Shown here in pieces: positions 8,515 through 43,631 of a DNA stretch of 64,000 nt; the first letter of the stretch is position 1, and every line of letters begins with the position of its first letter. Position numbers and translations under genes: made by a program. The notes beneath the pieces are model-generated. The model did no database searches. It had not been told where the DNA came from and saw nothing but the letters and a program-made list of their open reading frames with translations. The stretch is from Selaginella tamariscina (Eukaryota; Streptophyta; Lycopodiopsida; Selaginellales; Selaginellaceae). Location of the stretch: contig PUQB01000022.1 of the NCBI GenBank assembly GCA_003024785.1, forward strand, positions 938,001 to 1,002,000, in the 5' to 3' direction.

Positions 8515-8860
8515 GTGTGATTATTATTTGTACTGTCTTATTTTTTTCTTATGAATACTTCTTAATATAAAAAAGGTTTTGAGTATGTAACATTTGGAGT
8601 ATTAATTAAAACAAATCGTTATAATATAGTATTTGTATAATAAGTTTTAACACAGATTTTAATAATAATTATTATGTTAAATTATAATTGTGTGATAAGG
8701 TTAAATGTGTCTTAACATCATTAGTTCACGTGATCAAATAAGAAAGAGTTTAATAAAAGTAAAATTTAAATTAAAACATATATATACACACATTATCTAT
8801 ATTAAACGCTAGCACGAAAGCCTTACATAAACTCACATTTTTAATGCTCTAAGATAGATA
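8515..8860. repeat. Diverged direct repeat, copy 2 (AT-rich)
   Basis: This is the partner of the copy at 7425-7755, about 1.1 kb downstream and in the same orientation. The 760 bases between them are AT-rich and hold no supported gene. Copy 2 ends just upstream of the kinase fossil's first ATG. Confidence 0.6.
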
Positions 8861-8884
8861 AGGGTTTCGGATCGGATTAACAAC

Positions 8885-10468
8885 ATGGACCTCAAGCAGA
8901 GATCCGGCACGGGATTGCTGGGTATACTCCTGTACTTCCAGAGCAAACTGCACCTTCACCACCACACAAAAGAAGACAATGACAAGAGACGAAGGTACGA
9001 GCACCTCACTGCACAGATTTCATTGTCAGGATCCGGATCACCGAAGAGAATCGAGGTCTTTGGTGAGTACGTTGCGAGGCAGATCGCGTGCACACGTGAG
9101 AGTAGTGCTCGCCAAGGTTGCATTTCAGTATCTGTCCGGGGACAAGAGCACTCGGACAAGAGTATGGAAGGTCTGTTACTGTTTCTGAGCCGGATGTGCT
9201 CCTCCGAGGAAGAGATGGTGCGCCTGAGCAGAGAGCTTATACGGGAGTTCGATGCGTGTTTGGTGTCGTATTTTGCGTTTCACTGGAGCCACTCGGCACT
9301 GCTGCTCGACCAGGTCCAGAAGGCAAGGGAACACAAGCTGAAGACTGCAGTAATGGCTGCGACCCGGAAGGAGAGGCTCGAGAGGATCAGTAGCAAACTC
9401 AAGATCAAGCGGACGTTCTCAACGATACTCGAAATGTTCCGTGCTATGCACATTGTGGACAGGGGAGTTCCTCAGGAGGGGCAAGTGGTCGTGCCGGCGG
9501 ACTCCAACGTCAGGAGTCCGGTTCTCCTCCTGATAGGAGGCGGAATGGGCGCCGGCAAGAGTACGGTTGTAAAAGAGATCCTGTCCGGATCTTTCTGGTC
9601 GAGTGCCGCCCACGGAGCAGTTGTAGTTGAGGCGGATGCCTTCAAGGAGACAGACATCATATACCGGACGATAAGCTCCTCCAAGCTCCGTGACGGAGTG
9701 GACATCGCCATGGCATCAGCTGGTTCACAAGTCCTCCACGGATGCTGCTTCTTCTCTGCTCGTGGCGGCTCTCAACGAGGGGCGCGACGTGATATTTGAC
9801 GGAACTATGTCGTGGGAGCCGTTTGTTCTCCAGACTATCTCCATGGCGAGAGACGTACACAACAGGCGGTACCGCCTGGGACGGGGATATGTACAGGAGG
9901 ACAACACCGAGGAGTACTGGGTGCCGGACGGTGAGACCGTACAGTCCGGACCGGCTACCGTACAGGATAGAGCTTGTCGGGGTGACATGCGACCCGCTCC
10001 TGGCGGTTGTACGGGGGATCCGACGGGCGATCATCACGAAACGTGGGGTTCCGATCGAGGGCCAGCTTCGTTCCCACCGGTTGTTTGCGGCGTCCCTGGA
10101 GAAGTACTGCAGTCTTGTGGACCAGGCTAGGATCTACTCGACCAGCAAATCAGGGGAGCCGCCGGAGCTTATAGGATGGAAAGACGGACGCAACAAGCTC
10201 TTAATTGATCCGACAGGTTTTGAGACGGTCAAACAGTTGGGGATTAACGACAAGGCAGGTTCTGTTCTTGAGCTGTTCAAGGACGGACACGAGCCGGACG
10301 TTTGGAAGAGCGTTGTACTTGATCCTGAACGGCCTGCCAGGCAGGAGTACATCAGGAGTATGCTTAGTTCATGTCCGGAGTTGGCCTCGGACTCCGACTC
10401 GAGCTCCACCGGTCCACTTCAGAGTCCGACTCGAGCTCGCACTGGTCCACGTCGGAGTCCGACTTGAG
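8885..10468 (+). pseudogene. Plant zeta-toxin-fold P-loop kinase-like gene, broken (fossil)
   Basis: The deduced protein segments match a conserved plant family of P-loop NTPases annotated with the zeta-toxin fold. The family's own function in plants is poorly known. An N-terminal helical region is followed by a Walker A motif (GGGMGAGKST, near 9535) and an acidic EADAFKE motif. Later come the STDAASSLLVAALNEGRDV and DGTMSWEPFVLQTI regions. The gene is intronless across about 1.6 kb and clearly GC-richer than its AT-rich upstream flank. The frame is interrupted about twice, so it is treated as a fossil. A partial inverted copy lies at 12700-13025. Confidence 0.6.
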
Positions 10469-14700: not shown

Positions 14701-14723
14701 ATGTTCACTATCTTTCTTATAAC
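14701..14723 (+). pseudogene. GDSL lipase pseudogene, 5' piece (signal peptide start)
   Basis: ATG at 14701 opens MFTIFLIT. The frame is cut after 14723 by the transposon and resumes at 22659, giving MFTIFLITLVANAHEF, a typical hydrophobic signal peptide. That continuity across the insertion is strong evidence for both the start codon and the transposon limits. Confidence 0.7.
14715..14723. repeat. 9-bp target site duplication, left copy
   Basis: TCTTATAAC at 14715-14723 is repeated exactly at 22650-22658, flanking the Mutator-like element. Nine bases is the usual duplication length for this superfamily. Confidence 0.8.
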
Positions 14724-14879
14724 GGGTCTCGGCGAAAAAGAGGCTCCCGCTGGGGAGGCTTCATATTATTCTAGTATATTCGCCGATATTTCAGGTATAT
14801 TCTAGCATATTCTAGAATATGCTCAAGAATATTCTAGAATATATAACTTAATAAAGCATTATCCTAAACCCTAAACCAT

Positions 14880-17800
14880 TTATCCTTGTAGCACCGGTGG
14901 GTCATGAACTCTGCTGCAATTCACCAGCAAACGGTGGACCTCCATCTCACTGAGCGATCGCCTTTGTAGAAAATATGTGACGTCTAGGTTCAAGCCAAGC
15001 ACACGGCTATAGCGAAGTACATGTGTACACATGGGCTCCAACTTTTGCTCTTCTGAAAGGTAGAACAACTGCATGTAGGATAAGTACTAATAGTCACCTT
15101 TGCAGAGTCATTTCCTGCCGACACAACGAAAGCCTCCTTCCGTCCTTAACTGTCACTTAACATTTCTCACACAACCTAAAAACGTCTTGGCCTTGGAAAT
15201 TCTTCTCTTGTTCCTTAGACATTTTTGTTGGAGTCCGAACCATACGTCCTTCGAAAGGTGGAATTGTTGTAGATCCAGCTCCACGTGGTGGCGATGGTGT
15301 TTTGTCCTTCTGACCCTCATTACTCTTCCTGCCGTCCCTGTAAACCTTCCAGAACAAAGCCTGCATCCTGTAGTTCTCTGACCTCCTCACTTGTCAGCTT
15401 CGTTTCCTTGAGCACAGGCCAAACCGTTGGTGGTGTTGGAATTCGTGAGAAGAATTTTGCCGTTTGGCGCTGAAACACCCTGAATCTTTTGGGCAGAACC
15501 ACATCATCTGTTGTACATACTCCTCATTCCCCAAGGCATCAATGTACATTCGTTTTCCATAGAATCCTGGTGCTGGCACTCTGCTTGGATAACCGATTGG
15601 TTTTCCACACAGAGCAGTTCCTTCCTGATTCATCCCCAAACACTTAACCTTACTAGATGCTCCGATTCGTCTGATGGCCCACTCTGTTTGAGCAATCTCT
15701 CTCTCCAAAACCTCTTCGAACCTTAACCTCTTTCTCCTGTTGTTTTGGACCACCCGCTCTGTGTACTCTACATCATGTCTGTGTGAACGTCGAGCATCAG
15801 ACTGTTCTGTTCCTGTGACTGTTCTCCTAACAGTTTGCACTCGAACGTTAGTGGTACTCGTGAACTCCGGGCTGGTCAAGTGTTCCTCGCCTTCCACCAG
15901 ATTGATAATTGTTGATGGAGATACACTTTTCCCCTCAGAGAGTTTGCGTTGCACTCGTTTCAACAGAGTTTCCTTCGAAGGCCCTGACCCTGTATACCTC
16001 CCTTCTATTGCCGCTTTCACCTTCGCACTCTGCATAACTGCATCGGTGAGGTCTAACATTGTCGCCTCCAGCAGTGGTACTCTTTTGGCCAATCTTGCTC
16101 TTCTTGCTCTCGCGTGAATCACTTCAGCATTGTTTGTAGTTGGAACGCTCGCGAGTCCTTCTTCTGTCATGTCTCCCAGTTCCGCCATGAGATGTGGTCC
16201 TCATGCCTGATCCACCAAGACAGCCATGTCTTCAAAGCTCGAATGTTTGACGCTCGTCCTTCCCAAAAAGACTCGAGAATTGCTAGTTGTTCTTTCTTAG
16301 ATTGTTCATTCAGTGCTGCAGGCCAGGCACGAGCAAGCTTCATGTGTTCTTCGCGATGTTCTTCTGCGATCCATTTCTTTGTCACCTGACACGGATTGCA
16401 TAAAGTGAAACAGACAGCTTCTTTCCCTCCCTTTCATCTTTCTCCGTTGTTGAATACTTGGCGCAAGGCTATCCATATCGCTCCAGCCTCATCCGACATG
16501 AAACCAGCAAAGTTGACATTCTCCAAACCCTGCTTCTTACAAACCTCTAGCATTGTGTTCAAGAACTTCAGCACTGCAACATTATCTTCGCGGCACATAT
16601 CTGCGTAAGCTATAGTCACCATGGATCTGACACTGCAAGAGAGCATTAGATAACGAAGATTAGAAAGTGTTATGAAGAGTTTTACAACTTACAATGGGTC
16701 ATAAAGGTGTATTCCAATTGTCGCCCAGTCTGGTACGGTGCGTGTGGTCCAGAACAACCCATTGATCATGAAGGTCTCCTCCACTTTGACACCTTCTGAT
16801 GTACTCAACTCCTGAACCCGGTCCCTCAACTGTCATTTTGAAGATCAGAGGCTGCTCCTCAGCATGCAGTTCCATCCCTGGAACATGATGCGGATGAGGT
16901 TTTCTTTGTTTCCAGAAGACCCTCGTAACCCTCTCTAAAGTGTGTCTCCTTCTGTCTTGATTGTGTAATCCAGTCCCGAGTCCTAAAGAAAGGTCACGTC
17001 AGTGTGTAGAGATCTAAAGAAAAATACCTTCGATGGTTTGTTAGAGGTTCAAGTTTTGAGAGTAAACCAGTGTACGAGACTTCTCCTTCTTCCTTGAAAA
17101 GTTCTTCAAAGATGAGCTCACGCGCGCTTGAAACTCAATCACTCGTTGATTGGTTCGCGGACTGCTCTTTACCACGTTGCTGACACTAGATCTGGCACGC
17201 TGAACGTTTGAAGCTGACACTGAGGGGCTGACTGGATGCTGATGAACACCTCTGTGAATGAACAACCTTGTAAAAGAAATGTCGTCTGGCAGAATGTAGT
17301 ACACATAAGCCGGACAAGTGTGCACTAGCAATGGCTCCTCTCCACAATGCTTACATTTCATGCCTATTACTTTGCCTGTCTCAGTTGTCTTTGCCTTCTC
17401 CACAGCACCCTTGAAGTGACATTCATTTGCTTTCTTCTCAAAAGCCAAGTAGGGGCAGTAGGATTGATGCATTTGAGATGTCCGACACATGAACTTCGAC
17501 TGACTCGCGCCGGAACATGCCAGTGTGTTGTGCTCGGGTGTGTCCAATGGTAGCAGCCATCCTTGCGATTCATCCCCAAGTACTTCTCTGTGCTTTCTTC
17601 TTTGGGGGAAGTTCGTAAATGACATTTCCATTGTATATCTGCGGTAGTTCAGAGACTCGTTTAACTTCAGACGAACCAATGAGATCCTTCCCTATCCTAC
17701 ATTTGTCTGCTCTTAGAAGACACACCAGCATGGATTCCTCACGCTCCTTGTCCGCAACCTGAACAACGGGCCCTTTGCCGGGCACAATGTGTAAAAGACA

Positions 17801-18003
17801 AACTGGTTTGATGCATTGCCTTCTGGTAACAACTCCACATCTTCTCCAGAACTCGCAGAAACTGACATCAATTGAACCACATGTATATACTGAACCAACA
17901 AGGAATGTTGAAAGCAATGAAGATCATGTTCAAACACAAAAGCATTTCCATCTTCATCGACTGGGAAATCTTTGTCAATGCCTTCATAGGTAACTCTGGC
18001 CAT
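14880..18003 (-). CDS. MULE-like DDE transposase gene, multi-exon, somewhat decayed
   Basis: Reading leftwards from the ATG at 18003, the segments include a zinc-finger-like region near 17250-17480 (GMKCKHCGEEPLLVHTCPAY, FTRLFIHRGVHQHP). A catalytic-core-like region follows at 16434-16820 (MINGLFWTTRTVPDWATIGI, then AGFMSDEAGAIWIALRQVF). After it come a helical stretch (16167-16385), a 260-residue region with further cysteines (15394-16188) and a C-terminal piece ending at 14880. The DEAG aspartate and the P-x-x-x-x-IGIHLYD context resemble Mutator-like transposases, in agreement with the 9 bp duplication. In the first acidic motif Asp appears as Asn (INGLF). Several frame changes exist, some of which may be introns, for example near 16650-16690 where splice-like signals flank the break. 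Confidence 0.6.
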
Positions 18004-18469
18004 GACAACGCAAGGAGAAAGCTCGGTGGTTTAGGAAAGCAAAGCAAAAGATTAAACACACTCTCTCGCCAAAAAAAATTATAATCGTTTAATAAACGTG
18101 AATACACGTTTGTATATAATTAATTCTACGTTGCCCAGCTCACAGTGTTCTTAATGCTGTCCTCTCTAGTATCACCGATTTAATTTAATTACTACCTTTT
18201 ATGATTTGAAATATCTTCACTTTACCAATTATTCACATATTTTAAAATAAACCCTAAATATTAATGTCACATTTATTCCGTAGGGTTCACTGTTTTCATT
18301 GCGGCTAGGGTTTTTTGGTAGATAGGGTTTACTGTTTCCACTGCGGCTAGGGTTTCTTCAATCTCAGATCTGTTTCTGAAATCTCCTCCAAGGGGCTTGA
18401 GAGGAGCGGCGCCATCCATTTCGACTCGATTCGTGCAGCCCAAGTAAATCAATCGAGATTTCTGTGCCG

Positions 18470-18840
18470 ATTTAGATTGTCGGCACCATCCTGCTCAGTC
18501 GGCGGCCACAAGGTATGTGCAATTTCTGTATTTTTAATTTGCGCTCAAATATTTTCTTTTTCAGAGATAAGGGTCTTCCCATTTGTGCCGACTGAGAGCG
18601 ACGGCACCATCCTGGTTCAGTCCACAAGGTATTTTCGATTTGTTTATTTTTTTCTTTGCGGCTCAAGTATCCGTATCACAATGTTTTTTTTTCAGAGTTA
18701 AGGTCTTCCATTTTGACTGAGGACGGCACCATCCTGGTTCAGTGCAGCCACAAGGTATTTTGATTTGTTTATTTTTTTTGCGGCTCAAGTATTTTCTTTT
18801 TTCAGAGTTAATGGGTCTTCCCATTTTGCGTCTGAGAGGG
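18470..18840 (+). repeat. Tandem repeat of mini-exon/mini-intron units in the 5' leader
   Basis: Three consecutive units of about 110-130 bases each contain CGGCACCATCCTG...CACAAG, then GTATxTT, a T-rich tract and TTTTTCAG, then AGxTAAxGGTCTTCC. Each unit therefore carries its own plausible 5' splice site, polypyrimidine tract and 3' splice site. Confidence 0.65.
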
Positions 18841-18861
18841 ACGGCACCATCCTAGCTTAAT

Positions 18862-19150
18862 CGGCACCATTATCTCTTCAGTGCCGTTTGAGAGGGTCGG
18901 CACCAACCTGTCTCAGTCGGCAGGATATGCTCTTCTTCATCTCTGTGCCGTTTGAGAGGGTCGGCACCAACCTGTCTCAGTCGGCAGGATATGCTCTTCT
19001 TCATCTCTGGGCTGTCTAAGAGGGTCGGCACCAACCTGTCTCAGGCAGGATATGCTCTTCTTCATCTCTGGGCTGTCTAAGAGGGTCGGCACCAACCTGT
19101 CTCAGTCGGCAGGATATGCTCTTCTTCATCTCTGTGCCGACTGAGAGGGT
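18862..19150 (+). repeat. Minisatellite, about 64-bp unit, carrying a bipartite GTCGGCA motif
   Basis: Four to five units repeat GAGAGGGTCGGCACCAACCT then GTCTCAGTCGGCAGGATATG then CTCTTCTTCATCTCTG. Each holds GGTCGGCA, a 12-base spacer, and AGTCGGCA. Unit identity is high, so the array expanded recently. Confidence 0.8.
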
Positions 19151-19257
19151 CGGCACCAGCTAGCTTGAGTCGGTAGCCACAAGGTTAGTCATCTTTGTTG
19201 TTTTTTTTTTGTCTCCTAATCAATTGACTTGTGTGTTTGCTTTCCAGAGTTTACAAA

Positions 19258-22200
19258 ATGGTGAGAGCTTCAAAACGTCTACTAGAGACTGCGCCTGATG
19301 AAGAGCCACGGGAAGAGAAGAGGATATCGAAGCAGAAGCGAGGCAAGAGAGGAGAACCATCTAATGTAGCAAAGGAGGATCCTCCAGTGACTCAGTCTGG
19401 AGTAGTACCAATTGAGCAGGAGCAGCCTCCATCAACCATCACAGATTTCCCGGAGAGCTCGTTGCAGTTGCCTCCTTCATCCGCTGAGGTTGCAGTCCTG
19501 AACGAGCAAGTGCAGATGACAGAGGCAGTTGAAGCTAGCGAGGACGACTTGGAGGAGGCAATCAGCAAAAAGAGAGGCCGCAGGAAAGCTGATCCAAAAG
19601 GCAAGAAGGCGAAGAGCGATAAGGAGCCGAAGGAGTTATACAGCATACCGGCTAGCCTGCATTTGGAGAGCTCAGCGAACCTTCTCGACAAAATTACTGT
19701 CAAGGGACTTGGTGATCCTCATGATGTGCCCATCTGTAGAATGCATTTGAATGAGGTGGTTCGATGAGTGAACCCAGGGGACTTGGACATGCTGGTGTCA
19801 TCGTTGAAGAAGACTAGTTATTTATGCAACACGGCCTTGTTCATTCTGTCCATCGGAGATCGACTCACTGCTGAGGAGCTATCGGAGCTGTTGAAGGACA
19901 CGTTCAGTACGAGCAGCACCGGTCTTTCGAGCAAGCTCTTACTCAGCCGGAGTACAAACAGTGGGCTTCAAGGCTCTCAAACCGGAAGTTCAGCTGCTGG
20001 GACGGGAACCATAGGCTACATGCTTTGCAGAAGCTCTACCGGGAGGATGCAGAGGACAACCAGGGATGGGCTATTCGCGTTCGATTGAGTTTCATCTCCA
20101 CGGAGAACCTCGACAATCTTCAACTGGTTTCGATGTTCCAATCGATTAACATGTGAGTATTTTCTTTTCTTTTTGTTAAGAGTCTAAACTTACAGTTTCA
20201 TTGAATAGATCTTCAGCAACATCTATGAAAACAACGCTTACCACATATTCTCCTCGCTATAAAGGCGGTCTGCACTAGTACGAAGGAACTCAGAAAATCC
20301 TGAGTCACTCACGGAGGTTGATCGTCTTGAGGTGCGGAAGTGGAAGGAGAGTTCAACAGGAAAGACGGCTTGGCATCCTCTTCCGAACCTGATCTGCGCA
20401 AAGATCCTTTTCAAGGTAACCTCCGATTTGATTGATAGGAAAGAAGTTTTTAACTTATTCTATGTGCAGAACGAGATCGACGATGATCTCGACAGAGTAG
20501 TCACCAGTGCTAAGGGCAATCCACGTTGAGCTGAACCTGAAGCAGCTAGTGTACAAGAAGCATGACAAGCGTATGCACAAGTTCCTCTCCATCATAGACC
20601 CAGACTTGGGGGAGGAGTGGTTCCAGAAGGTGACGAACATCTCTCATAAGCAGTGTCGCTGGATGGGCATTGAGAAGCTGTACGCGATGTCAAAGGCGAA
20701 GATTCCAAACATGCTACGACTCCGATACTTGAACAAGCTCACCCGTCTCGAATCCAAGGCAGAACAACAGACACTTGGGCTACCAGGCATGCAGGACAAA
20801 GAGTGGATCAAGTGGTTCACCTTGGACTTATATTAGAAGGCTGTGCGCGAGGAAGCCATTCAGATCCTTAAGGGGTTGCGAGAGGATGGTGAAGAAGTTG
20901 GAACGGATTCGACTTCATGAGCTGGTTTGACGAGATGCAAACTCGAAGCAAGTGCCTGGTCTTTCAACCCTTCCATGACTGCATACGGTTCACTTATTCG
21001 ATGGAGCCGAATGAGTTTCTGGAGCATGAGGAGTCTGCACGTCAGATGATATGGAGGTAAGCTTTCATTCCAACATAGCTACTGTCTGACTTTGTGTTAC
21101 AGGTTCATACTGGCGAAGAAATGGCACCGTCTCAGACGATGAAGCTATGGATAGATCATACAAGTGAGCCTCACATGTGGTCGAAGAGCAGAGGAGCTCT
21201 AACACCGTTCGAACGGGAGCATGTTCCATTCTTGCTCGACTATCCATCGCAACAGCCACCAGCTTGGGAGAGCTCACTATTCGACGTGCACGGCAATGAT
21301 CTACCAGCGATTGTTTGGAGCCAAACGAAGTAGAGGCTATCAGAAGAGCAAGATGAAGAAGACGGTGCGGAAGACAACTACACCTGCAAAGGGATCGGGA
21401 GTGGGACCAAGCTCTTCTACAACACCTCTACCGGCAATCAACTTTACACTCAATGAGGTGCAGCCACTTGTAGCTGGTTTGGACATCAAGGACAACCTGA
21501 TGACCTTCATCCTGACCCTGGCTGCATCCCGTGGATCCTATGACCTGGTTGTGTGCAATATGGAGGAGATGAGTAGGTCTTTCTTTGAGCCGGGTGCTTC
21601 CCAAACAGAGGTGTACACCAAGCTCCGACAACAGGTTGACAGACTACATACGGGTGAGTCACAAACGGTGTTCCAGGAAGTGGTAGGTGAATACGGCTTC
21701 AACCTCATCATCCTCGACTTGCCCAATGAGCTTGTATATGGAGGTGCTAGCATCAACAAGGACATTGTGCAGCTAGATCCGGTGAAGTTTGAAGAAGCCT
21801 TGCAGTTCAGTGGAATGCACTTGGCAGCGAGTGGTTTCATGGTTGTCTTTGCGAGTTCTCCTTCTGTTTCGGCGGTGATTCAGGCGGCTGCGGTAATCAA
21901 CTTGGAGGTTGCAGGGACTTACAGCGTCTACCGTGCACGAGGCTGGGGATACCGTGACAAAATTAAGGTAAGCTAGCTATTCAAGTTCAAGTTTAACTCG
22001 GTCTATGTGGATAACTTGTTAGTTCTCTTGGTGCTGCAAAGCTCTAAGAAAAAGTTGAAGAGGCCAAACCCTCTAGCGTTGACGAACACGATCCTCGTCG
22101 ACACCGCCGACCGTTTTCAGGAGGCTTGGTAAGGAAGTACTTTGCTTTGTTTATCCTAATGGAAGTTTGTGCAGGATGATGATTCAACCGAAGAGTGTTC

Positions 22201-22462
22201 GACTCATGCAGCTTTTGATCGAGCATCTTAGTAGACCTGGCGACCTAGTCTGGGATATTGGTTCCGGAACCGGGTCATCGTTGTTAGTTGCCGTCGAGCT
22301 CGGAAGGAATATTATAGGAACCGATAAGAGTTTCAAACTCTCTAGGTTGGCAACAAACAAGCTCACAGAGAACATTAGACTAGAGGAATTACCAACTCAA
22401 ACACCTCCACGTCCAAGCCTAGCGAGAACTGCAGCTTTACTTAAGATGAAGAAGAAACTTTA
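19258..22462 (+). CDS. ParB-like domain plus class-beta amino-methyltransferase, transposon-borne
   Basis: The gene starts at the ATG at 19258 after a spliced leader. It opens with a charged, lysine-rich N terminus (about residues 1-130). Next is a ParB/sulfiredoxin-like domain ending in FSCWDGNHRLHALQKLYRE (near 19970-20040), then helical linkers. The methyltransferase fold covers about 21540-22462. Motif order is IV first (GFNLIILDLPNE, near 21700), then the target region, then X and I (QPKSVRLMQLLIEH, GDLVWDIGSGTGSSLLVAVE, near 22180-22290). This is the permuted order of N4/N6 amino-methyltransferases such as PF01555. Introns with GT-AG ends are visible near 20152-20211, 20416-20469, 21058-21103, 21969-22040 and 22128-22173. 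Damage includes an in-frame TGA at 19765, a stop near 20270 and frame changes. The motif IV tetrad is DLPN rather than DPPY. Target base and activity are unknown. Confidence 0.7.
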
Positions 22463-22544
22463 GCTAATGTATATTGAGTAATAAATTAAGCTAATATAAA
22501 AAAGAATAAGATAGAAATACAACAGTTTTAATAGAATTCTTTTT

Positions 22545-22571
22545 TGCCGACTGGGGCCAATACTGCCGACC
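22545..22571 (-). promoter_or_regulatory. Subterminal bipartite GTCGGCA site
   Basis: Read on the minus strand this is GGTCGGCA, an 11-base spacer, then AGTCGGCA. It reproduces the half-sites and almost the spacing of the central minisatellite, about 80 bases inside the element's right end. It could be a binding site for the ParB-like or transposase protein (inference). Confidence 0.5.
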
Positions 22572-22649
22572 AGAAAGAATATTCTAAAATATTCTAGAAT
22601 ATTCGAGCCCAGGCCTCCTGGGCCCCAAGCCTCCAAAATGGCGGCACTC

Positions 22650-22658
22650 TCTTATAAC
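22650..22658. repeat. 9-bp target site duplication, right copy
   Basis: TCTTATAAC is an exact copy of 14715-14723. Confidence 0.8.
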
Positions 22659-23719
22659 ACTTGTTGCGAATGCACATGAGTTTCCTCCTTGGTTGTGTTC
22701 AACTGTTGTCTTTGGCTTCACATATTCACTTGGTGACACCGACAACTTAAACTTGGAGGCCAACAACACAAAGCCATCATGACATTATCCCTATGGTGTC
22801 ACAATTAGTCACCCATCTGGTCGTTACTCTAATAGTTGGGATCTTGGTTAAGGGGATGTGCTTCCTAGTCTGACATATAATGGTACTTCTTTTCAAAGTT
22901 TGAACGTTGGTTATGCTAGTGCAACTATGGTGATTATTCCTGACAGTACTATCTTTAGCCCACACATCTTCTCCTTCCAAGTTGAAGATTTCATTGAGCA
23001 CAAAAAGAGAATGCAACATCGATTTCCTAAAGAAAGTCAAACAGTGGTTTGAAGAAGCTCTTTACTACATTCAGATTGGAAGGGACGATATCAATGCTAA
23101 CATTTTAAATGGAATTAATTACGTTATTAACTATACTATTTCTGCAGCTATAAACGGTCTTAGATCTAGCATTATTGAGCTTTATAAGGCAGGAGCAAGA
23201 ATTTTTTATTGTTCAATATGCCTGCAATTGATTGTGTTCTGGTTTATCTCCAAGTTAATCGAGTTCCAGAATACGACTCACGAGGATGCATTATCCCTAT
23301 TAACAATCTCGTTTAGTATTATAATTCTTTAATCAAAACATTAGGTGATGAACTTAATAACAACTACACCAACATGGATATATATTATTTTAATTGGTTT
23401 GCAACTACCTTAAAAAATTTAAATAACATGTCTAAGTATAACTTCACCAATGCATGTTGTGGTTTGGGAGGTGGCAAGTTCAATTATGTAGATATGTTTG
23501 TAATATGTGTACACACACACATATATATAATGTGATATATTATAGGTCTAAATGGTTTATGTGGTTGTTCAATGGATGGGTTTATGCTATATGATGATCC
23601 TGAGAATTATATTAGATTTGATGGTGTTCATTTTAATCAACACTTTAACAAGATTATGACCAATTTTATTATGAAACAAAAGTTTGTAATTCCATCTGTC
23701 ATATTGAATTCTGGTTGTT
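22659..23719 (+). pseudogene. GDSL esterase/lipase pseudogene, main body
   Basis: After the transposon the frame resumes with ...TLVANAHEF. The block I region follows as VVFGFTYSLGDTDNLN, where intact genes read FGDSLxDTGN, so the catalytic Ser context is degraded. Then come PYGVTISHPSGRYSN, a mid-protein YKAGARIF...IDCVLVY block, NACCGLGGGKFNYVD, an intron at about 23501-23546, and the terminal IRFDGVHFNQHF block that carries the catalytic Asp-x-x-His. Several stops and frame changes separate these blocks. The family secretes lipid or cell-wall ester hydrolases. The decay after block I is consistent with loss of function following the transposon insertion. Confidence 0.7.
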
Positions 23720-35308: not shown

Positions 35309-35798
35309 TGTCACGACCCGATACAGGATACAGGATACGACATACAGGATTCAGCCTACAGGATATGCGATACAGGATTTCGGCCCGCAGGATATTCCCA
35401 CAGGATATGCCACAGGATATTCCCGCAGGATATTCTCACAGGATATTCCCGCAGGATATTCCTATAGGATAAGGATGACCAATTTTGGCTAGTGACTAGA
35501 TTAGGCTCATGACCAGATTAGCTTGGAGTTGTGAGCATAAAAGCTCCGACCTAATTGTTGTACAATCAGTTACAATCAACACCAGTCATTCTACGATTAT
35601 TCTTGTTCCTTGTTCTTGTCTTGTTCTTGTCTTACTCTTTGCCTCCTGCTCCTGTCTTGCTCCCGGATCCTGTCTTGTTCTTGGATCCGTCCTGTTCCTG
35701 TTCCTAGTTCCTGTCCTACTCTCGGTCCTGTTCCTGAGTCAAGCCTTCCTGTTCTCGGAATCCTACTTGCTTCCTGGTTCCTGGATCGTGGCTTGACA
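35309..35798 (+). repeat. 5' LTR of the inner chromovirus
   Basis: It starts TGTCACGACC and ends TGGCTTGACA. It contains GCAGGATATTCCC-type tandem repeats at its 5' end, a CATAAAAG box at about 35536-35543, and a pyrimidine-rich TCCTGT tract. Confidence 0.9.
35568..35579 (+). promoter_or_regulatory. Probable mRNA 5' end used as self-primer
   Basis: AGTTACAATCAA lies about 30 bases after the CATAAAAG box, where transcription should start. It is exactly complementary to the 12 bases at 35801-35812, two bases past the LTR. Self-priming of this type is known from Tf1/sushi elements. Confidence 0.65.
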
Positions 35799-35800
35799 GT

Positions 35801-35812
35801 TTGATTGTAACT
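35801..35812 (+). other. Self-priming primer binding site
   Basis: TTGATTGTAACT follows the 5' LTR after two bases and does not resemble a tRNA primer site. It pairs perfectly with LTR bases 35568-35579. The outer copy has TTGATAGTAACT here (34247-34258) and a matching change in its LTR (33937-33948). Confidence 0.65.
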
Positions 35813-35902
35813 CCTTTCATAGCTCTTTGTTTCCCAGCTACCTTTTTTTTTTTTTCCTTGATTCTTTTCCTTCGTTTTTCTCCTTTCTTTCTTTCATACG
35901 AT

Positions 35903-36882
35903 CATGGCTGATTTTGAGCACTTTCAACGCGAGCACCAAATGTTGCTTTCATGAGCTGGCCACTTTGCGCCAAGTGGTCACCGATCTACAAGGCTCCACC
36001 CATGCGGCACATGCAGCTGCTGATGCATCCTCCAAGGCTGCTGCGCAGGCTCTCTCTCAGGCATCGGTGGTTCCTTCTTCATCGAACTTTTCTCCGGAGC
36101 CGAAGATCAGCATGCCAGAGAAGTTCAGTGGCAACCGTGCCGATTTCCAAGGTTTCCTGAATCAGATCCGGCTCTTGATCCGCATGCAACCACGCCGCTA
36201 CTCGACGGATGCACAAAAGGTTGGCCTTTTGGCATCCTTACTAAGTGGATCTCCACGAGCTTGGGTTGCTCCCTTGCTGGAGCGTGACGACCCATTGATG
36301 GAAGACTTTGAAGGTTTCGTGGCTGCCTTTGAAGCCTGCTTTGGAGATCCTGATAAGTACCGTTCTGCATGCACAAAGTTACGGAGGCTCACACAAGGAT
36401 CCAGACCAGCTTCCGTTTATGCATCCGAATTCCAGCAATTGTGCACGAACATTCCATGGGACGAGACTGCATTGATCGAACATTTCCGTTTTGGGCTGAA
36501 GGACGACGTGAAGGACCTTCTCCTTACGTTACCGGATGCCCAAACGTTAGCGGAGATCATGCAACAGGCCGTTCGCTGCGACAACCGTTTGTTCGAGCGC
36601 CGTCAGGAAAAATTCCGTCAGCAGTTCCTGCCAGCCAACCCTGTAGCCGTAGCACATGTTCCTGCGACACCTTCTGGAGCAGTTCCTATGGAGGTTAACA
36701 ATTCCAAGCGTGGCCCACTTTCAACTGCTGAGAAACAACGTCGACGGGGTGAGAACCTATGCTTGTATTGTGGTGCAGCAGGACACAAGGTGGCGGAATG
36801 TCCTAATAAAGCCAGGAAGTTCAAGGCGCGTGAAGCCGAAGCTGAAGTTCAGCCGGAAAACTTCAATGTCCACTTCGTCTAG
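35903..36882 (+). CDS. Chromovirus gag (capsid/nucleocapsid), inner copy
   Basis: The product begins MADFEHFQREHQ with an alanine/serine-rich N-terminal helix region. It continues through a retrotransposon-gag capsid domain (AWVAPLLERDD, SVYASEFQQLCTNI) and ends after a CCHC zinc knuckle (CLYCGAAGHKVAEC). Gag packages the element RNA in cytoplasmic particles. The frame is close to whole and is treated as a fossil. Confidence 0.75.
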
Positions 36883-36893
36883 GAGCCGCGAAG

Positions 36894-39800
36894 TTGGACG
36901 TAGGTGCAGGCTCCATTGGTGCTACTCATACCATTCCATCACTCAAGTTTCCTGTACACATTCGCCTCAATAATCGAGAGCTCAAGGAGTTTGCCCTGTT
37001 AGACACTGGTGCAAATGCATGTTTCATGGATGACACTTTTGCAGCTCAGCATGGCATTCCGGTGGTGAAGTTGAAGCATGCAATTCCTGTAGAGGTGGCC
37101 GATGGTCGTTTGATTGCTTCTGGCGCAGTTACCCACGCTACCACACCTCTCTCTTGCAATCATGGTGCATTCAACTGTTCGATTTCCTTCAACCTGATCA
37201 AGACTCGGTCGACTCCCATCATTTTTGGCATGCCATGGTTCGTTGTTGCAAATCCGCAGATCGACTGGAGGTCTAGGACGCTCACGTTTTCCTCTCCAAC
37301 AGCCAGGATCAACCCTGTACCTTCCTGCGTGCAGGATACATCCTTGGTGTCTGAGGCAGTACAAGCTACAGGATTGACCGTGCCTGTTCCTGTACCAGTG
37401 TTGAAGACTCCTGCTCGACAGGATTCACCTCATGTCAGTTCCTCAGCACATCCGCAGGCTTTCTCCACTCCTGTAAGTTTGCGGTGTCCTGTACAGGGTT
37501 CTTCCAATCCTGTATCAGTGTCGAAGGTTCCTCCTCAACAGGATCCACCTCCTGTTGATCCATCAGCACATTCACAGGCTCTCCTCACTCCTGTGCATCC
37601 ACGGACTTCTGTACAGGATTCTTCCAATCCTGTACACTTGTCAACATCCACATCTGTTTCTTCCAATCCTGCTTCTTTTCATTACTCTGTTTCTATTCCA
37701 CCCCCAAGATCCTTCCTCTTTTTCAATCACAGCTCCTTCCTGCTCCTCTCCGAGTTCTTACCACTACCATGCATGAACTTACCACTGATCCTGCTCCTTT
37801 CCACCTTTTTGCCTTTCAAGTAACTCCTACGTCCTCTTCTACCTTTCCTGTGTCTGACTCTCCTGTTTTTCAATCTCCTTCACCTACTCCTTCTCCTTCT
37901 CCTCCTTCTTCTCTACCATCCAAGTACCACGACTTTAAGGACGTTTTTGACAAGCACAAGGCTACAGTTCTTCCTGTTCACAGGTCCTACGACTGTCCTA
38001 TTGATCTTGCAGAAGGAAAGACCCCACCGTTCGGACCGATTTACGCATTGTCACCCACAGAGTTGGAGGTTCTTCGCCAATACATCGAGGACAACTTGGC
38101 ATCCGGCTTCATTCGTCACTCAAAGTCCCCTGCAGGAGCGCCAATCTTCTTTGTCAAGAAGAAGGATGGGAGCTTACGTTTGGTTGTGGACTACAGGGGT
38201 TTGAATCAAGCTACCATTCGGAATCGGTACCCGTTGCCATTGATCCCGGAACTTCTCGATCGGCTGCGAGGAGCAAAGGTGTTCACGAAGATCGACTTAC
38301 GAGGGGCCTACAACCTTGTACGGATTCGTCCCGGCGATGAGTGGAAGACTGCCTTTCGTACAAGGTATGGACACTTCGAGTACACGGTGATGCCTTTCGG
38401 CCTTACCAATGCCCCAGCCGTGTTCCAACATATGGTGAACGACATCTTTCGTGACTTCTTGGACCAGTTTGTGGTGATCTACCTTGACGACATTTTGATT
38501 TTCTCCAAGGACCAGGCGGCACATGACAAGCATGTACGGTTGGTTCTACAGCGGCTTCGTGAGCATGGCTTGTATGCGAAGTTGGAGAAGTGTTTTTTCG
38601 ATAGGGATTCTGTGGAGTTCTTGGGCTACATCGTCTCTCCTGCTGGCGTTTCCATGGACATGCACAAGGTGAAGACCATCGTGGAGTGGGAGAGGCCCAA
38701 GTCTGTACGAGATGTACAATGTTTCCTTGGCTTTGCAAACTTCTACAGGCGATTCATACAGGACTTCTCCAAGCGTGTACTTCCACTCACGGAACTCACC
38801 AAGCGCACAGAGGTTTTCTCTTGGTCCGACAAGGCGGAACATGCATTCACAACACTCAAGGACACCTTCACGACAGCTCCGATTTTAGCACATCCTGATC
38901 CTTCTCGTCCTTTCTTCGTTGAAGCAGATGCCTCGGATTTTGCAGTAGGATCCGTCCTATCGCAAGTTGGAGAGGACAAGTTGCTTCATCCTGTAGCTTT
39001 TCACTCTCGTAAATTCCTGTCGGCGGAGATCAATTACGAGATTCATGACAAGGAACTCAAGGCCATTGTGGATTCGTTTGAGGAGTGGCGGCATTTCCTG
39101 GAAGGTGCTGCACATCCTGTACAAGTTCTTACGGATCACAAGAACCTGGAGTACTTTCGAACGGCTCGAGTTCTCAGTCGGCGACAGGCTAGGTGGGCGG
39201 AGTTCCTATCACGTTTTGACTTCGTCATCGTCTACAGGCCCGGTTTTCGGAATGGCAAGGCGGACGCATTGTCTAGGCGCTCCTACCTTGCACCAAGCCC
39301 GGGCGATCCTGCATTTGACTGTCAAAGGCAAGTGTTGTTGGGTCCTGATCGATTCCGGCTTGCGGCACTGCAGGTCCATCAGGCTCCAGCAAATTCAACT
39401 CTCCTACAAGACGTCCGTTCGCAGTTGGCTACAGACGACTTGGCAAAGAATGTGTTCTCACACATTCATCCTGACGTTGCAAGTTCCTCTTCCTCCAGTT
39501 CCCGTCCAGACTACAACCTGTTCACCATACAGGATGGACTCCTGTATCGGGAAGGTCTCCTGTACGTTCCTGTTGGTGTTTGCAGGACTCGTGTGGTACA
39601 GGATTGTCATGATACTCCGGCTACAGGACATTTTGGTGTGGCCAAGACAGTTGAGTTGGTGACTCGCAACTATTGGTGGCCTGGGTTGCGGGGTTTTGTG
39701 GAAAGGTTTGTACGGAGTTGTGACACCTGCAACAGGTCGAAGATGCCTCGTCATGCACCTTCTGGTCTTCTTCGTCCTCTTCCTGTTCCTTCTACTCCTT

Positions 39801-40888
39801 GGAGATCCATTTCTATGGATTTCCTCACAGATCTTCCTCCTTCTCGTGGATTCGATGCAGTTCTTGTGGTGGTTGACCGTTTCACCAAGCAGGCTCATTT
39901 CCTACCCTGCAACAAGACAGCTACAGGTCAGACAACTGCCGAATTGGTGATCCGTGAGGTGTTCCGACATCATGGTCTTCCTGAGAGCATTGTTTCCGAT
40001 CGAGGTCCACAATTCATGTCCAAGTTTTGGCGAGAGCTTCTTCGGAGTCTACAGGTTAAAGCGGATCTTTCTTCAGGATATCACCCGCAAACTGATGGAC
40101 AGTCAGAACGCACAATCCAGACCTTGGAGCAATATCTTCGTTGCTTCATCAGTTACCAACAGGATAATTGGTTGGACCTTCTTCCTATGGCGGAGTTTGC
40201 CTACAACAACTCCATTCACGCATCTACAGGCCAGACACCTTTCTTTGCTCTTACAGGTCACCATCCACGTTTTGACTTTGCTCTTCCTGCTTCTCCTTCT
40301 TCCGCTCCTGCAGTACAGGATCGTCTTCAGCATCTTCGGCAGGTACAGGATGATCTCCAGGTTCACCTTCAGCAGGCACAGGAACGGTACAAGCATCATG
40401 CTGATGCTCACCGTCAACCAGCACCTGCATACAAGATTGGTGATCTCGTGTGGCTTCTTCGTCGACACATTCGCACCAACAGGCCTTCTTCTAAGTTGGA
40501 TTTTCAACGATTGGGCCCTTACATGATCGTGGCGGAGGTAAATCCTGTAGCTTTCCGACTCGAGTTACCACCTACGGTGAAACTTCATCCTGTGTTTCAC
40601 ACCTCCTTGTTGGAGCCGTATCATCCTTCTTCTCTTCCTGGTCGTGCTTCTTCTCCTCCCCCTCCTGTGGTCATTGCTGGTGAACCTGAGTACGAAGTTG
40701 CAGCCATCCTTGATTCTCGTCTTCATCGTCGTCAACTTCAATACTTGGTGGATTGGAAAGGTTATTTGCCTACCGATCGCACTTGGGAACCTGCATCCAA
40801 CTTACTCCATGCTTCTTCCAAAGTTGCTGCTTTCCATCGGCGTTATCCTGCTAAACCAGGTCCCAAGACTCGTGGAACTCGTCCTTAG
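36894..40888 (+). CDS. Chromovirus pol (protease, RT, RNase H, integrase, chromodomain), inner copy
   Basis: In order: an aspartic protease (LLDTGANACF, near 37000) and a proline/serine-rich linker. Reverse transcriptase follows (PFGLTNAPAVFQ, YLDDILIFS, near 38395-38505), then RNase H (FFVEADASDFAVG, LTDHKNLEYF). The integrase has an H-H-C-C finger and core (DRFTKQAHF, SDRGPQFMSKFW, HPQTDGQSERT). A C-terminal chromodomain (YLVDWKGYLPTDRTWEP, near 40740) marks chromoviruses and is thought to steer integration to marked chromatin. It looks essentially whole and lies directly downstream of gag. Confidence 0.85.
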
Positions 40889-40899
40889 GGAGGAGGTGC

Positions 40900-41415
40900 T
40901 GTCACGACCCGATACAGGATACAGGATACGACATACAGGATTCAGCCTACAGGATATGCGATACAGGATTTCGGCCCGCAGGATATTCCCACAGGATATG
41001 CCACAGGATATTCCCGCAGGATATTCTCACAGGATATTCCCGCAGGATATTCCCGCAGGATATTCCTACAGGATATTCCTATAGGATAAGGATGACCAAT
41101 TTTGGCTAGTGACTAGATTAGGCTCATGACCAGATTAGCTTGGAGTTGTGAGCATAAAAGCTCCGACCTAATTGTTGTACAATCAGTTACAATCAACACC
41201 AGTCATTCTACGATTATTCTTGTTCCTTGTTCTTGTCTTGTTCTTGTCTTACTCTTTGCCTCCTGCTCCTGTCTTGCTCCCGGATCCTGTCTTGTTCTTG
41301 GATCCGTCCTGTTCCTGTTCCTAGTTCCTGTCCTGCTCTCGGTCCTGTTCCTGAGTCAAGCCTTCCTGTTCTCGGAATCCTACTTGCTTCCTGGTTCCTG
41401 GATCGTGGCTTGACA
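40900..41415 (+). repeat. 3' LTR of the inner chromovirus
   Basis: It is almost identical to 35309-35798, with extra GCAGGATATTCC-type units in the 5' short-repeat tract. It lies 11 bases after the pol stop codon, with GGAGGAGGTGC as polypurine tract. Confidence 0.9.
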
Positions 41416-43631
41416 TCGTCTAGGAGCCGCGAAGTTGGACGTAGGTACAGGCTCCATTGGTGCTACTCATACCATTCCATCACTTAAGTTTCTTGTACAC
41501 ATTCATCTTAATAATCGAGAGCTCATGGAGTTTGCCTTGTTAGACACTGGTGCAAATGCATGCTTCATGAATGACACTTTTATAAATCAACATGGCATTT
41601 CGGTGGTAAAGTTGAAGCGTGCAGTTCCTATAGGGGTGGCCGATGGGCATCTGATTACTTCTGGCGCAGTTACTCATGCTACCGAACCTCTCTCCTACAG
41701 TTATGGCACATTCAACTGTTTAATTTTCTTCAACTTGATCAAGACTCGGTCGACTCCCATCATTTTGGGCATGCCATGGTTCATTGTTGCAAATCCGCAA
41801 ATCGACTGGAGGTCTAGGACGCTCATGTTTTCCTCTCCGACAGCTAGGATCAATCCTGTACCTTCCTGTGTGCAAGATACATCCTTAGTATCTGAGGCAG
41901 TACAAGCTACAGGATTGACCGTGCCTGTTCCTGTACCAGTGTTGAAGACTCCTCCTCGACAGGATTCACCTCACGTCAGTTCCTCAGCACATCCACAAGC
42001 TCTCTCCACTCCTGTAAGTTTGTGTTTTCCTATACAGGGTTCTTCCAATCCTGTATCAGTGTCAAAGGTTCCTCCTCAACAGGATCCACCTCCTGTTGAT
42101 TCATTAGCACATTCGCAGGCTTTCCCCACTCCTGCGCAACCACGGACTCCTGTACAGGATTCTTCCAATCCTGTACACTCGTCAACATCCACACAGGTTT
42201 TTTCCAATCCTGCCTCTTTCTGTTACTTTGCTTCTATTCCACCCCCCAAGATCCTTCCTCTTTTTCAGTCACAGCTCCCTCCTTCTCCTCTCCGAGTTCT
42301 TACCACTACTATGCATGAACTCGCCACTGATCCTGCTCATTTCCACCTTTTTGCCTTTCAAGCAACTCCTACGTCCTCTTCTACCTTTCCTGTATCCGAC
42401 TCTCCTGTTTTTCAATCTCCTTCTCCTACTCCTTCTCCTTCTCCTCCTTCTTCCCTACCATCCAAGTATCACGCCTTTAAGGACGTTTTTGACAAGCACA
42501 AGGCTGCAGTTCTTCCTGTTCACAGGTCCTACGACTGTCCTATTGATCTTGCGGAAGGAAAGACTCCACAATTCGGACCGATTTATGCATTGTCACCCAC
42601 AGAGTTGGAGGTTCTTCGTAAATGTCATAAATGTCGTAAATGTCATAAATGTGAACAGAAGCAGAGTAACAGAAAGAGGCAGGATTGGAAAAACCTGTGT
42701 GGATGTTGACGAGTGTACAGGATTGGAAGAATCCTGTACAGGAGTCCGTGGTTGTGCAGGAGTGGGAAAGCTTGCGAATGTGCTGACAAATCAACAGGAG
42801 GTGGATCCTGTTGAGGAGGAACCTTCGACATTGATACAGGATTGGAAGAACCCTGTATAGGAAAATGCAAACTTACAGGAGTGGGAAAACCCTGTGTGGA
42901 TGTTGACGAGTGTACAGGATTGGAAGAATCCTGTACAGAAGTCCGTGGTTGTGCAGGTCTAGGACGCTCATGCATCTACAGGACAGACACCCTTCTTTGC
43001 TCTTACAGGTCACCATCCACGTTTTGACTTTGCTCCTCTTGCTTTCTCCTTCTTCCGCTCCTGCAGTACAGGATCGTCTTTAACATCTTCGTCAGGTACA
43101 GGATGATCTCCGGGTTCATCTTCAGCAGGCACAGGAACGATACAAGTATCATGCTGATGCTCATCGTCAGCCGGCACCTGCATACAAGATTGGTGATCTC
43201 GTGTGGCTTCTTCGTCGACATATTCGCACCAACAGGCCTTCTTATAAGTTGGATTTTCAATGATTGGGCCCTTACAGGATTGTGGCGGAGGTCAATCCTG
43301 TAGCTTTCTGACTCGAGTTACCATCTACGGTGAAACTTCATCCTGTGTTTCACACCTCCTTGTTGGAGCCTTATCATGCTTCTTCTCCTCCCCCTTCTGT
43401 GGTCATTGACACGGAACTTGAGTACAAAGTTGCAGCCATCCTTGATTCTCGTCTTCATCACCGCCAACTTCAATACTTGGTGGATTGGAAAGGTTATTTG
43501 CCTACTGATCACACTTGGGAACCTGCATCCAACTTACTCCATGCTTCTTCCAAAGTTGCTACCTTCCATCGGCATTATCCTGCTAAACCAGGTCCCAAGA
43601 CTCGTGGAACTCGCCTTTAGGGAGGAGGTGC

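Follow-up and report, generated by a model that had tools for sequence, protein, structure and literature searches.

The transposon in the window and its family

A 64,000-nucleotide stretch of genomic DNA (C527:938001-1002000, hereafter the window) was analysed, and positions 14724-22649 were found to hold a single copy of a DNA transposon, flanked on both sides by TCTTATAAC. The copy carries a divergent pair of genes, namely a transposase on the minus strand and, on the plus strand, a methyltransferase-like accessory gene, which is referred to here as the MT gene. The MT gene extends from 19258 to 22463 including the stop codon, and consists of six exons separated by introns of 46-56 nt. The tips of the element are imperfect inverted repeats with GGAGGC blocks in common, and the subterminal ATATTCTAG repeats match better. 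An earlier interpretation made from the letters of the window (the sequence-only reading) had described a Mutator-like element (MULE) with a perfect 9 bp target duplication and two divergent genes. The duplication and the gene arrangement were both confirmed, and the proposed extent of the MT gene (19258-22462) proved correct to within one base. The features are collected in Table 1.

The window copy itself is dead, being old and broken with neither gene intact. Its MT gene contains an in-frame stop (19765-19767), nine frameshifting differences relative to the reference copy and a damaged splice acceptor at exon 5, and its transposase has 19 frameshifting differences.

To characterize the family, the genome (300,702,823 bases in 1391 contigs) was searched, and near full-length relatives of the element were found elsewhere in it. 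Twenty-two copies were read, the window copy and L009-L029. Perfect 9-bp duplications were present in 13 of these (the window copy, L009, L012, L014, L015, L016, L018, L021, L022, L023, L025, L027, and L028). L020 had a direct repeat of 8 bp rather than 9, no target-site duplication was found at the ends of L017 and L019, and in L010, L011, L013, L024, L026, and L029 one end was missing, altered or beyond the fetched stretch. With up to three mismatches allowed, genome-wide pattern searches gave 392 matches to the MT gene, 430 to the transposase and 346 to the left end (its first 35 bases as in young copies), and the reversed control patterns gave 0 matches each. A protein query with MT exon 4 gave 136 matches (135 scored of 1920 candidates), of which 30 had the top score at 100% identity.

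The sequence-only reading had asked whether the two genes always travel together. Of the 89 exact MT matches listed in the contigs up to C536, at least 61 were paired with an exact transposase match at 4-9 kb, in the expected opposite orientation. Among 46 exact left-end matches listed for the same contigs, at least 35 had an exact transposase match at the expected distance and at least 29 were accompanied by an exact MT match at 5-9.5 kb. Only exact matches entered these three counts, which makes them lower bounds. Six left ends, sampled from those without a listed exact MT match, served to check the idea that the MT gene is missing from many ends. L034 and L039 have about 1 kb of MT sequence, L036 has just 135 bp bordering the edge of the stretch, and L035, L037, and L038 have none; deletion, truncation or interruption has thus affected some copies. 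Ends that never contain the methyltransferase would have told against the sequence-only reading; MT matches are instead about as numerous as left ends, though three of the six sampled ends lack the gene. These results demonstrate a mobile unit whose two genes were amplified jointly, and the family is a recently amplified two-gene transposon with hundreds of copies.

Intact genes were found in a few copies. The MT gene is open over 992 amino acids (aa) in L022 and L025, and the transposase over 1019 aa in L026, with exon 3 also open in L016 and L018. In none of the 22 copies were both genes free of frameshifts. Many of the frameshifts are 1-base insertions or deletions (indels), and 195 of the 211 MT indel events shift the frame; some of the 1-base indels may be assembly errors.

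Several copies are complicated by other insertions. L025 is part of a 23-kb version (C120:9271 to about 32447) with a nested insertion inside and CCCACAAAA at both ends. A different DNA transposon is nested in some copies (L025:162-2425; L033:2418-5311) and encodes a DUF7869 protein (Pfam, E 1e-26). Its divergent strand holds a NIF/HAD phosphatase open reading frame (ORF; E 9.4e-13) and a small ORF with a SDAWVFDYCTRGSVLKECY stretch that looks methyltransferase-like by eye and had no Pfam match. In L028 (358-645), one copy has apparently inserted in the left end of another of the same family, the two left ends being 288 bp apart. The MT exon of L029, which is 80% identical, was considered as a distant family, and this was rejected, as it is an ordinary decayed copy.

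Table 1. Features of the transposon copy in the window (window coordinates)
Feature	Position	Strand	Remarks
Left target-site duplication	14715..14723	.	TCTTATAAC; 9 bp, perfect
Left end	14724..14879	+	Imperfect terminal inverted repeat and ATATTCTAG-rich subterminal repeats
Transposase exon 3	14880..16632	-	FMSDEAGA, CLFHF, NNAE, SWIM-like CxC..CxH; frameshifted here
Transposase exon 2	16693..16982	-	VVLDHTH; boundaries from L018/L026
Transposase exon 1	17028..18003	-	Start codon at 18003, Cys/His-rich N-terminal part; boundaries from L016/L026
Repeat array between the divergent genes	18453..19180	+	49-64 nt units, GTCGGC/GCCGAC-rich; length differs among copies
MT exon 1	19258..20152	+	N-terminal tail is charged; ParB-like stretch follows, with CWDGNHRL (from 19995)
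MT exon 2	20209..20415	+	Boundaries transferred from L022
MT exon 3	20470..21056	+	Boundaries transferred from L022
MT exon 4	21103..21967	+	Catalytic half, LDLPNE at motif IV position
MT exon 5	22010..22128	+	Splice acceptor damaged in window copy
MT exon 6	22175..22463	+	AdoMet-binding half, GDLVWDIGSGTG
Right end	22540..22649	+	GCCGACT motif, ATATTCTAG repeats, imperfect terminal inverted repeat
Right target-site duplication	22650..22658	.	TCTTATAAC; 9 bp, perfect

The transposase

Target-site duplications of Mutator and MULE transposons are 8-10 bp long, typically 9, which is the length of the perfect duplications in this family. We take VVLDHTH to hold the first catalytic aspartate of the transposase, and its arrangement with FMSDEAGA, CLFHF, and NNAE resembles, as we see it, that of MULE motifs. 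The MULE domain PF10551 gave no match up to E 10, whether the exons or the complete spliced protein (1019 aa) was searched; the transposase is therefore called MULE-like here and is not filed as a MULE. A SWIM zinc finger scored 15.7 bits (E 0.011) in exon 3 and 13.9 bits in the whole protein, below the cut-off of 19.6. No homologue was found at E 0.1 among 5.8 billion proteins (5967 candidates). The MULE-like transposase of the sequence-only reading thus stands as a transposase with MULE-like motifs and 9-bp duplications, and its membership in the MULE superfamily was not confirmed.

The accessory protein

The Pfam family N6_N4_Mtase (PF01555) matched window positions 22083-22460 with 38.6 bits (cut-off 26.7), and the spliced L022 protein with 35.7 bits (E 1.1e-8), the match spanning profile positions 164-219 of 221 only. 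The half that binds S-adenosylmethionine (AdoMet) also matched phage DNA methyltransferases (phrog_67, E 1.8e-10) and the type II methyltransferases of PADLOC (best E 2e-9), and the top rows of a phmmer search of the PDB covered this half only (best E 0.0021). LDLPNE, at the position of motif IV, stands ahead of the AdoMet motif GDLVWDIGSGTG, which is a permuted domain order. The permuted amino-methyltransferase of the sequence-only reading was upheld by the motif order together with the Pfam score, which places the domain inside that superfamily. No homologue of the MT protein was found at E 0.01 among 5.8 billion proteins (7997 candidates scored).

In a profile alignment with six phage methylases, chosen from the matches to this same MT protein, 213 columns were aligned across both halves and LDLPNE fell on the phage motif IV. 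The N-terminal half alone scored 18.1, with a probability of 0.8%, and the best of 40 shuffles scored 15.6. The catalytic motif (D/N/S)PP(Y/F/W), or a close variant, was not found in the MT protein. Its motif IV is DLPN, without the aromatic residue of DPPY, and the phage relatives have DIPY, DLPY or DPPF; catalysis is uncertain because of this difference. DLPN is present in all four copies readable at this position (window, L022, L025, and L029).

Two explanations of the protein turn on these data. An active N6-adenine or N4-cytosine DNA methyltransferase may mark the DNA of the element, either to let the transposase recognise the ends or to keep out host 5-methylcytosine (5mC). The N6_N4_Mtase match above the cut-off speaks for it, as does the alignment over both halves, although the six phage proteins were picked from the protein's own matches. 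The asparagine in place of the expected aromatic residue and the low-probability alignment of the N-terminal half speak against it, as does the 5mC-type decay of older copies described below, and we consider it a somewhat unlikely explanation. Alternatively, the methyltransferase domain could be catalytically dead and the protein only a DNA- or cofactor-binding scaffold, serving transposition as a second protein next to the transposase. Transposition of many two-gene elements depends on such a second protein, and DLPN is the same in every readable copy. The AdoMet-binding half is, however, the part that matches prokaryotic families, and a pure scaffold would not need it; we regard a dead scaffold as unlikely.

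The sequence-only reading had also proposed a ParB-like domain. A ParB profile gave no match in any of the profile libraries searched. In hhalign, the region scored 23.4 against phage ParB at a probability of 9%. None of 40 shuffles, and none in a second set of 100 (best 22.5), attained that score; the score of the region's second half alone was exceeded by 5 of 100 shuffles. The likeness comes from CWDGNHRL together with a phage ParB match of LDRLVSSLKKAGYLRN. The alignment scores above all 140 shuffles, set against the missing profile match and the low probability, weakly support a ParB-like domain. The accessory protein combines a permuted amino-methyltransferase domain with what is probably a ParB-like domain. 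AlphaFold2 single-sequence models of the ParB-like region and of transposase exon 3 had mean pLDDT (predicted local distance difference test) values of 33 and 36, and were not used.

The heptamer array

The heptamer GCCGACT/AGTCGGC, which was spotted by eye prior to counting, was counted in the nine copies with both ends defined. Counts run from 7 to 24 per copy, whereas 100 base-shuffled versions of each copy averaged fewer than one. Neither gene contains the heptamer in any of the nine copies, and most occurrences (6-21 per copy) lie between the divergent genes. Every one of the nine copies has a single occurrence close to the right end, and 0-3 lie near the left end. Motif arrays in the non-coding DNA of the element, as in VANC-type systems, are thus present in nine copies.

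Selection on and decay of the copies

Seven older and ten younger copies were compared. The MT gene has 48 fixed differences between the two groups, 26 changing and 22 silent, and the silent share (22 of 48) exceeds the 27-28% expected from the mutation spectrum (p 0.005-0.007). Copy-specific MT changes are also rich in silent ones (167 of 414 vs 30% expected, p 1e-5), and their ratio of 247:167 does not differ from the 26:22 of the fixed differences (Fisher p 0.54). These comparisons of substitutions make purifying selection on the MT gene likely but not proven.

The same numbers bear on whether the MT gene could be a captured passenger without function. The likeness of the fixed and copy-specific ratios and the silent excess in the copy-specific changes fit a passenger, and gene capture is frequent in MULEs. 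A passenger would not readily account for MT matches about as numerous as left ends (392 vs 346), for a frame open across five introns in L022 and L025, or for the silent bias of the fixed changes in the spectrum-matched test. We consider a passenger quite improbable.

The transposase has seven changing and three silent fixed differences, which are uninformative about selection. The fixed differences number 48 in the MT half and 10 in the transposase half (silent, 22 and 3), and the simplest reading of this contrast would be an exchange between subfamilies. One 1-base deletion in the transposase is present in six of the seven older copies, and the MT frameshifts with the widest sharing occur in four of the seven.

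In eight older copies, C-to-T changes were found at 102 of 3854 CG, 77 of 4663 CHG, and 59 of 14415 CHH sites, and A/T transitions at 51 of 24857 sites. Cytosine methylation at CG and CHG is the land-plant pattern. Since the C-to-T decay is mainly at CG and CHG, the older copies were methylated by the host. The sequence-only reading had suggested that a self-methylating element could evade silencing; as lasting protection this does not hold, because the older copies bear clear 5mC-type decay. CG/CHG transitions make up 16 of 61 fixed changes vs 179 of 394 copy-specific changes (p 0.005), and this lower proportion fits a source lineage that may have been less methylated.

Neighbouring features of the window

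When the flanks of the insertion are joined (window 14702-23060), they read MFTIFLITLVANAHEFPPW..., a possible signal peptide. The insertion may therefore sit in a gene or pseudogene for a secreted protein, which by eye resembles the GDSL type; Pfam gave no match. Elsewhere in the window, genes of a Ty3/gypsy-type retrotransposon with a chromodomain lie at 35797-42857, and an ORF at 8858-9796 has a weak match to Zeta_toxin/AAA-type nucleotide kinases (E 2.3e-5).

Interpretation

The explanation that we tentatively prefer is that a recently amplified MULE-like DNA transposon carries a divergent 992-aa accessory protein that reads the GCCGACT repeats and acts on the chromatin of the element. The protein would recognise the repeats, both those in the promoter shared by the two genes and those close to the ends, and would act there through a methyl mark, or through binding alone should the DLPN site be inactive. 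As a result, new copies would evade silencing by the host or else control their own transposition. A stronger form of this proposal is that a prokaryote-type ParB-methyltransferase fusion was turned into a sequence-specific anti-silencing factor of a land-plant MULE-like element, leading to hundreds of copies. At the GCCGACT arrays, a mark of N4-methylcytosine (4mC) or N6-methyladenine (6mA) would block 5mC, or the silencing machinery would be kept out by binding. We think this stronger form doubtful.

Several points weigh against the preferred explanation. To the DLPN motif, the missing PF10551 match and the faint ParB likeness are added the silent-rich copy-specific MT changes, with a ratio like that of the fixed ones, and some 1-base MT deletions that are common to up to four of the seven older copies. 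A heptamer-binding protein, if there is one, could be the transposase. Moreover, fewer methylation-driven changes would be expected of any active lineage in comparison with dead copies.

The model for the proposed action is that of VANC proteins on VANDAL elements. To our knowledge VANC has no methyltransferase domain, unlike the MT protein. In Arabidopsis, tandem repeats in the non-coding DNA of VANDAL21 carry a short motif to which VANC21 binds, with loss of methylation as the result (PMC5735166). Both systems have an extra protein gene and short-motif tandem arrays in non-coding DNA whose number varies between copies (PMC5735166). VANC21/VANDAL21 is the closest working model for the heptamer array, and the heptamer is a candidate target.

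The pairing of domains also has a precedent. In the Ectocarpus element Sola1-1_Ec32, a 1104-aa gene with a ParB-like and an N4C/N6A methyltransferase domain lies opposite the transposase, and the same paper cites cases of such accessory genes in green and red algae (PMC12477816). Compared by description, the element here is similar in the strand of its accessory gene, in the size of the product (992 vs 1104 aa) and in the domain pair; a methyltransferase-domain gene likewise lies within a DNA transposon on the strand opposite the transposase. Sola1-1_Ec32 is a 21.5-kb member of the Sola-1 superfamily in a brown alga, in contrast to the present element, with 9-bp duplications, a MULE-like transposase, a length of about 8 kb, a probable land-plant host and hundreds of matches. 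More distant parallels exist. The N4CMT of bdelloid rotifers is likewise a permuted N6_N4_Mtase in a eukaryote, but it is a host gene with a chromodomain that helps to silence transposons and is not transposon-borne (PMC8885841). The C5 methyltransferases of dinoflagellate and charophyte retrotransposons, which the sequence-only reading had correctly named as captured cytosine methyltransferases, are DNA-modification enzymes on transposons, but of the C5-cytosine type (PMC5890265). TET/JBP transposons also carry modification enzymes, but these are dioxygenases on fungal DNA transposons (PMC12730594).

In the open-licence literature searched, no report was found of a ParB-methyltransferase pairing in a MULE-like element or in a land plant. 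The novelty claimed by the sequence-only reading is therefore narrowed: the pairing itself is already described in Ectocarpus, and the kind of system is known. Within the open-licence literature searched, what is new is the MULE-like carrier, the probable land-plant host and the motif array.

If active, the protein would amount to a DNA-marking or anti-silencing system that a transposon in a plant genome carries for itself. The family offers hundreds of natural replicates of different ages with a specific candidate target motif, and makes testable the use of unusual base marks (4mC, 6mA) by eukaryotic transposons. It also suggests that ParB-methyltransferase accessory genes extend beyond algal transposons.

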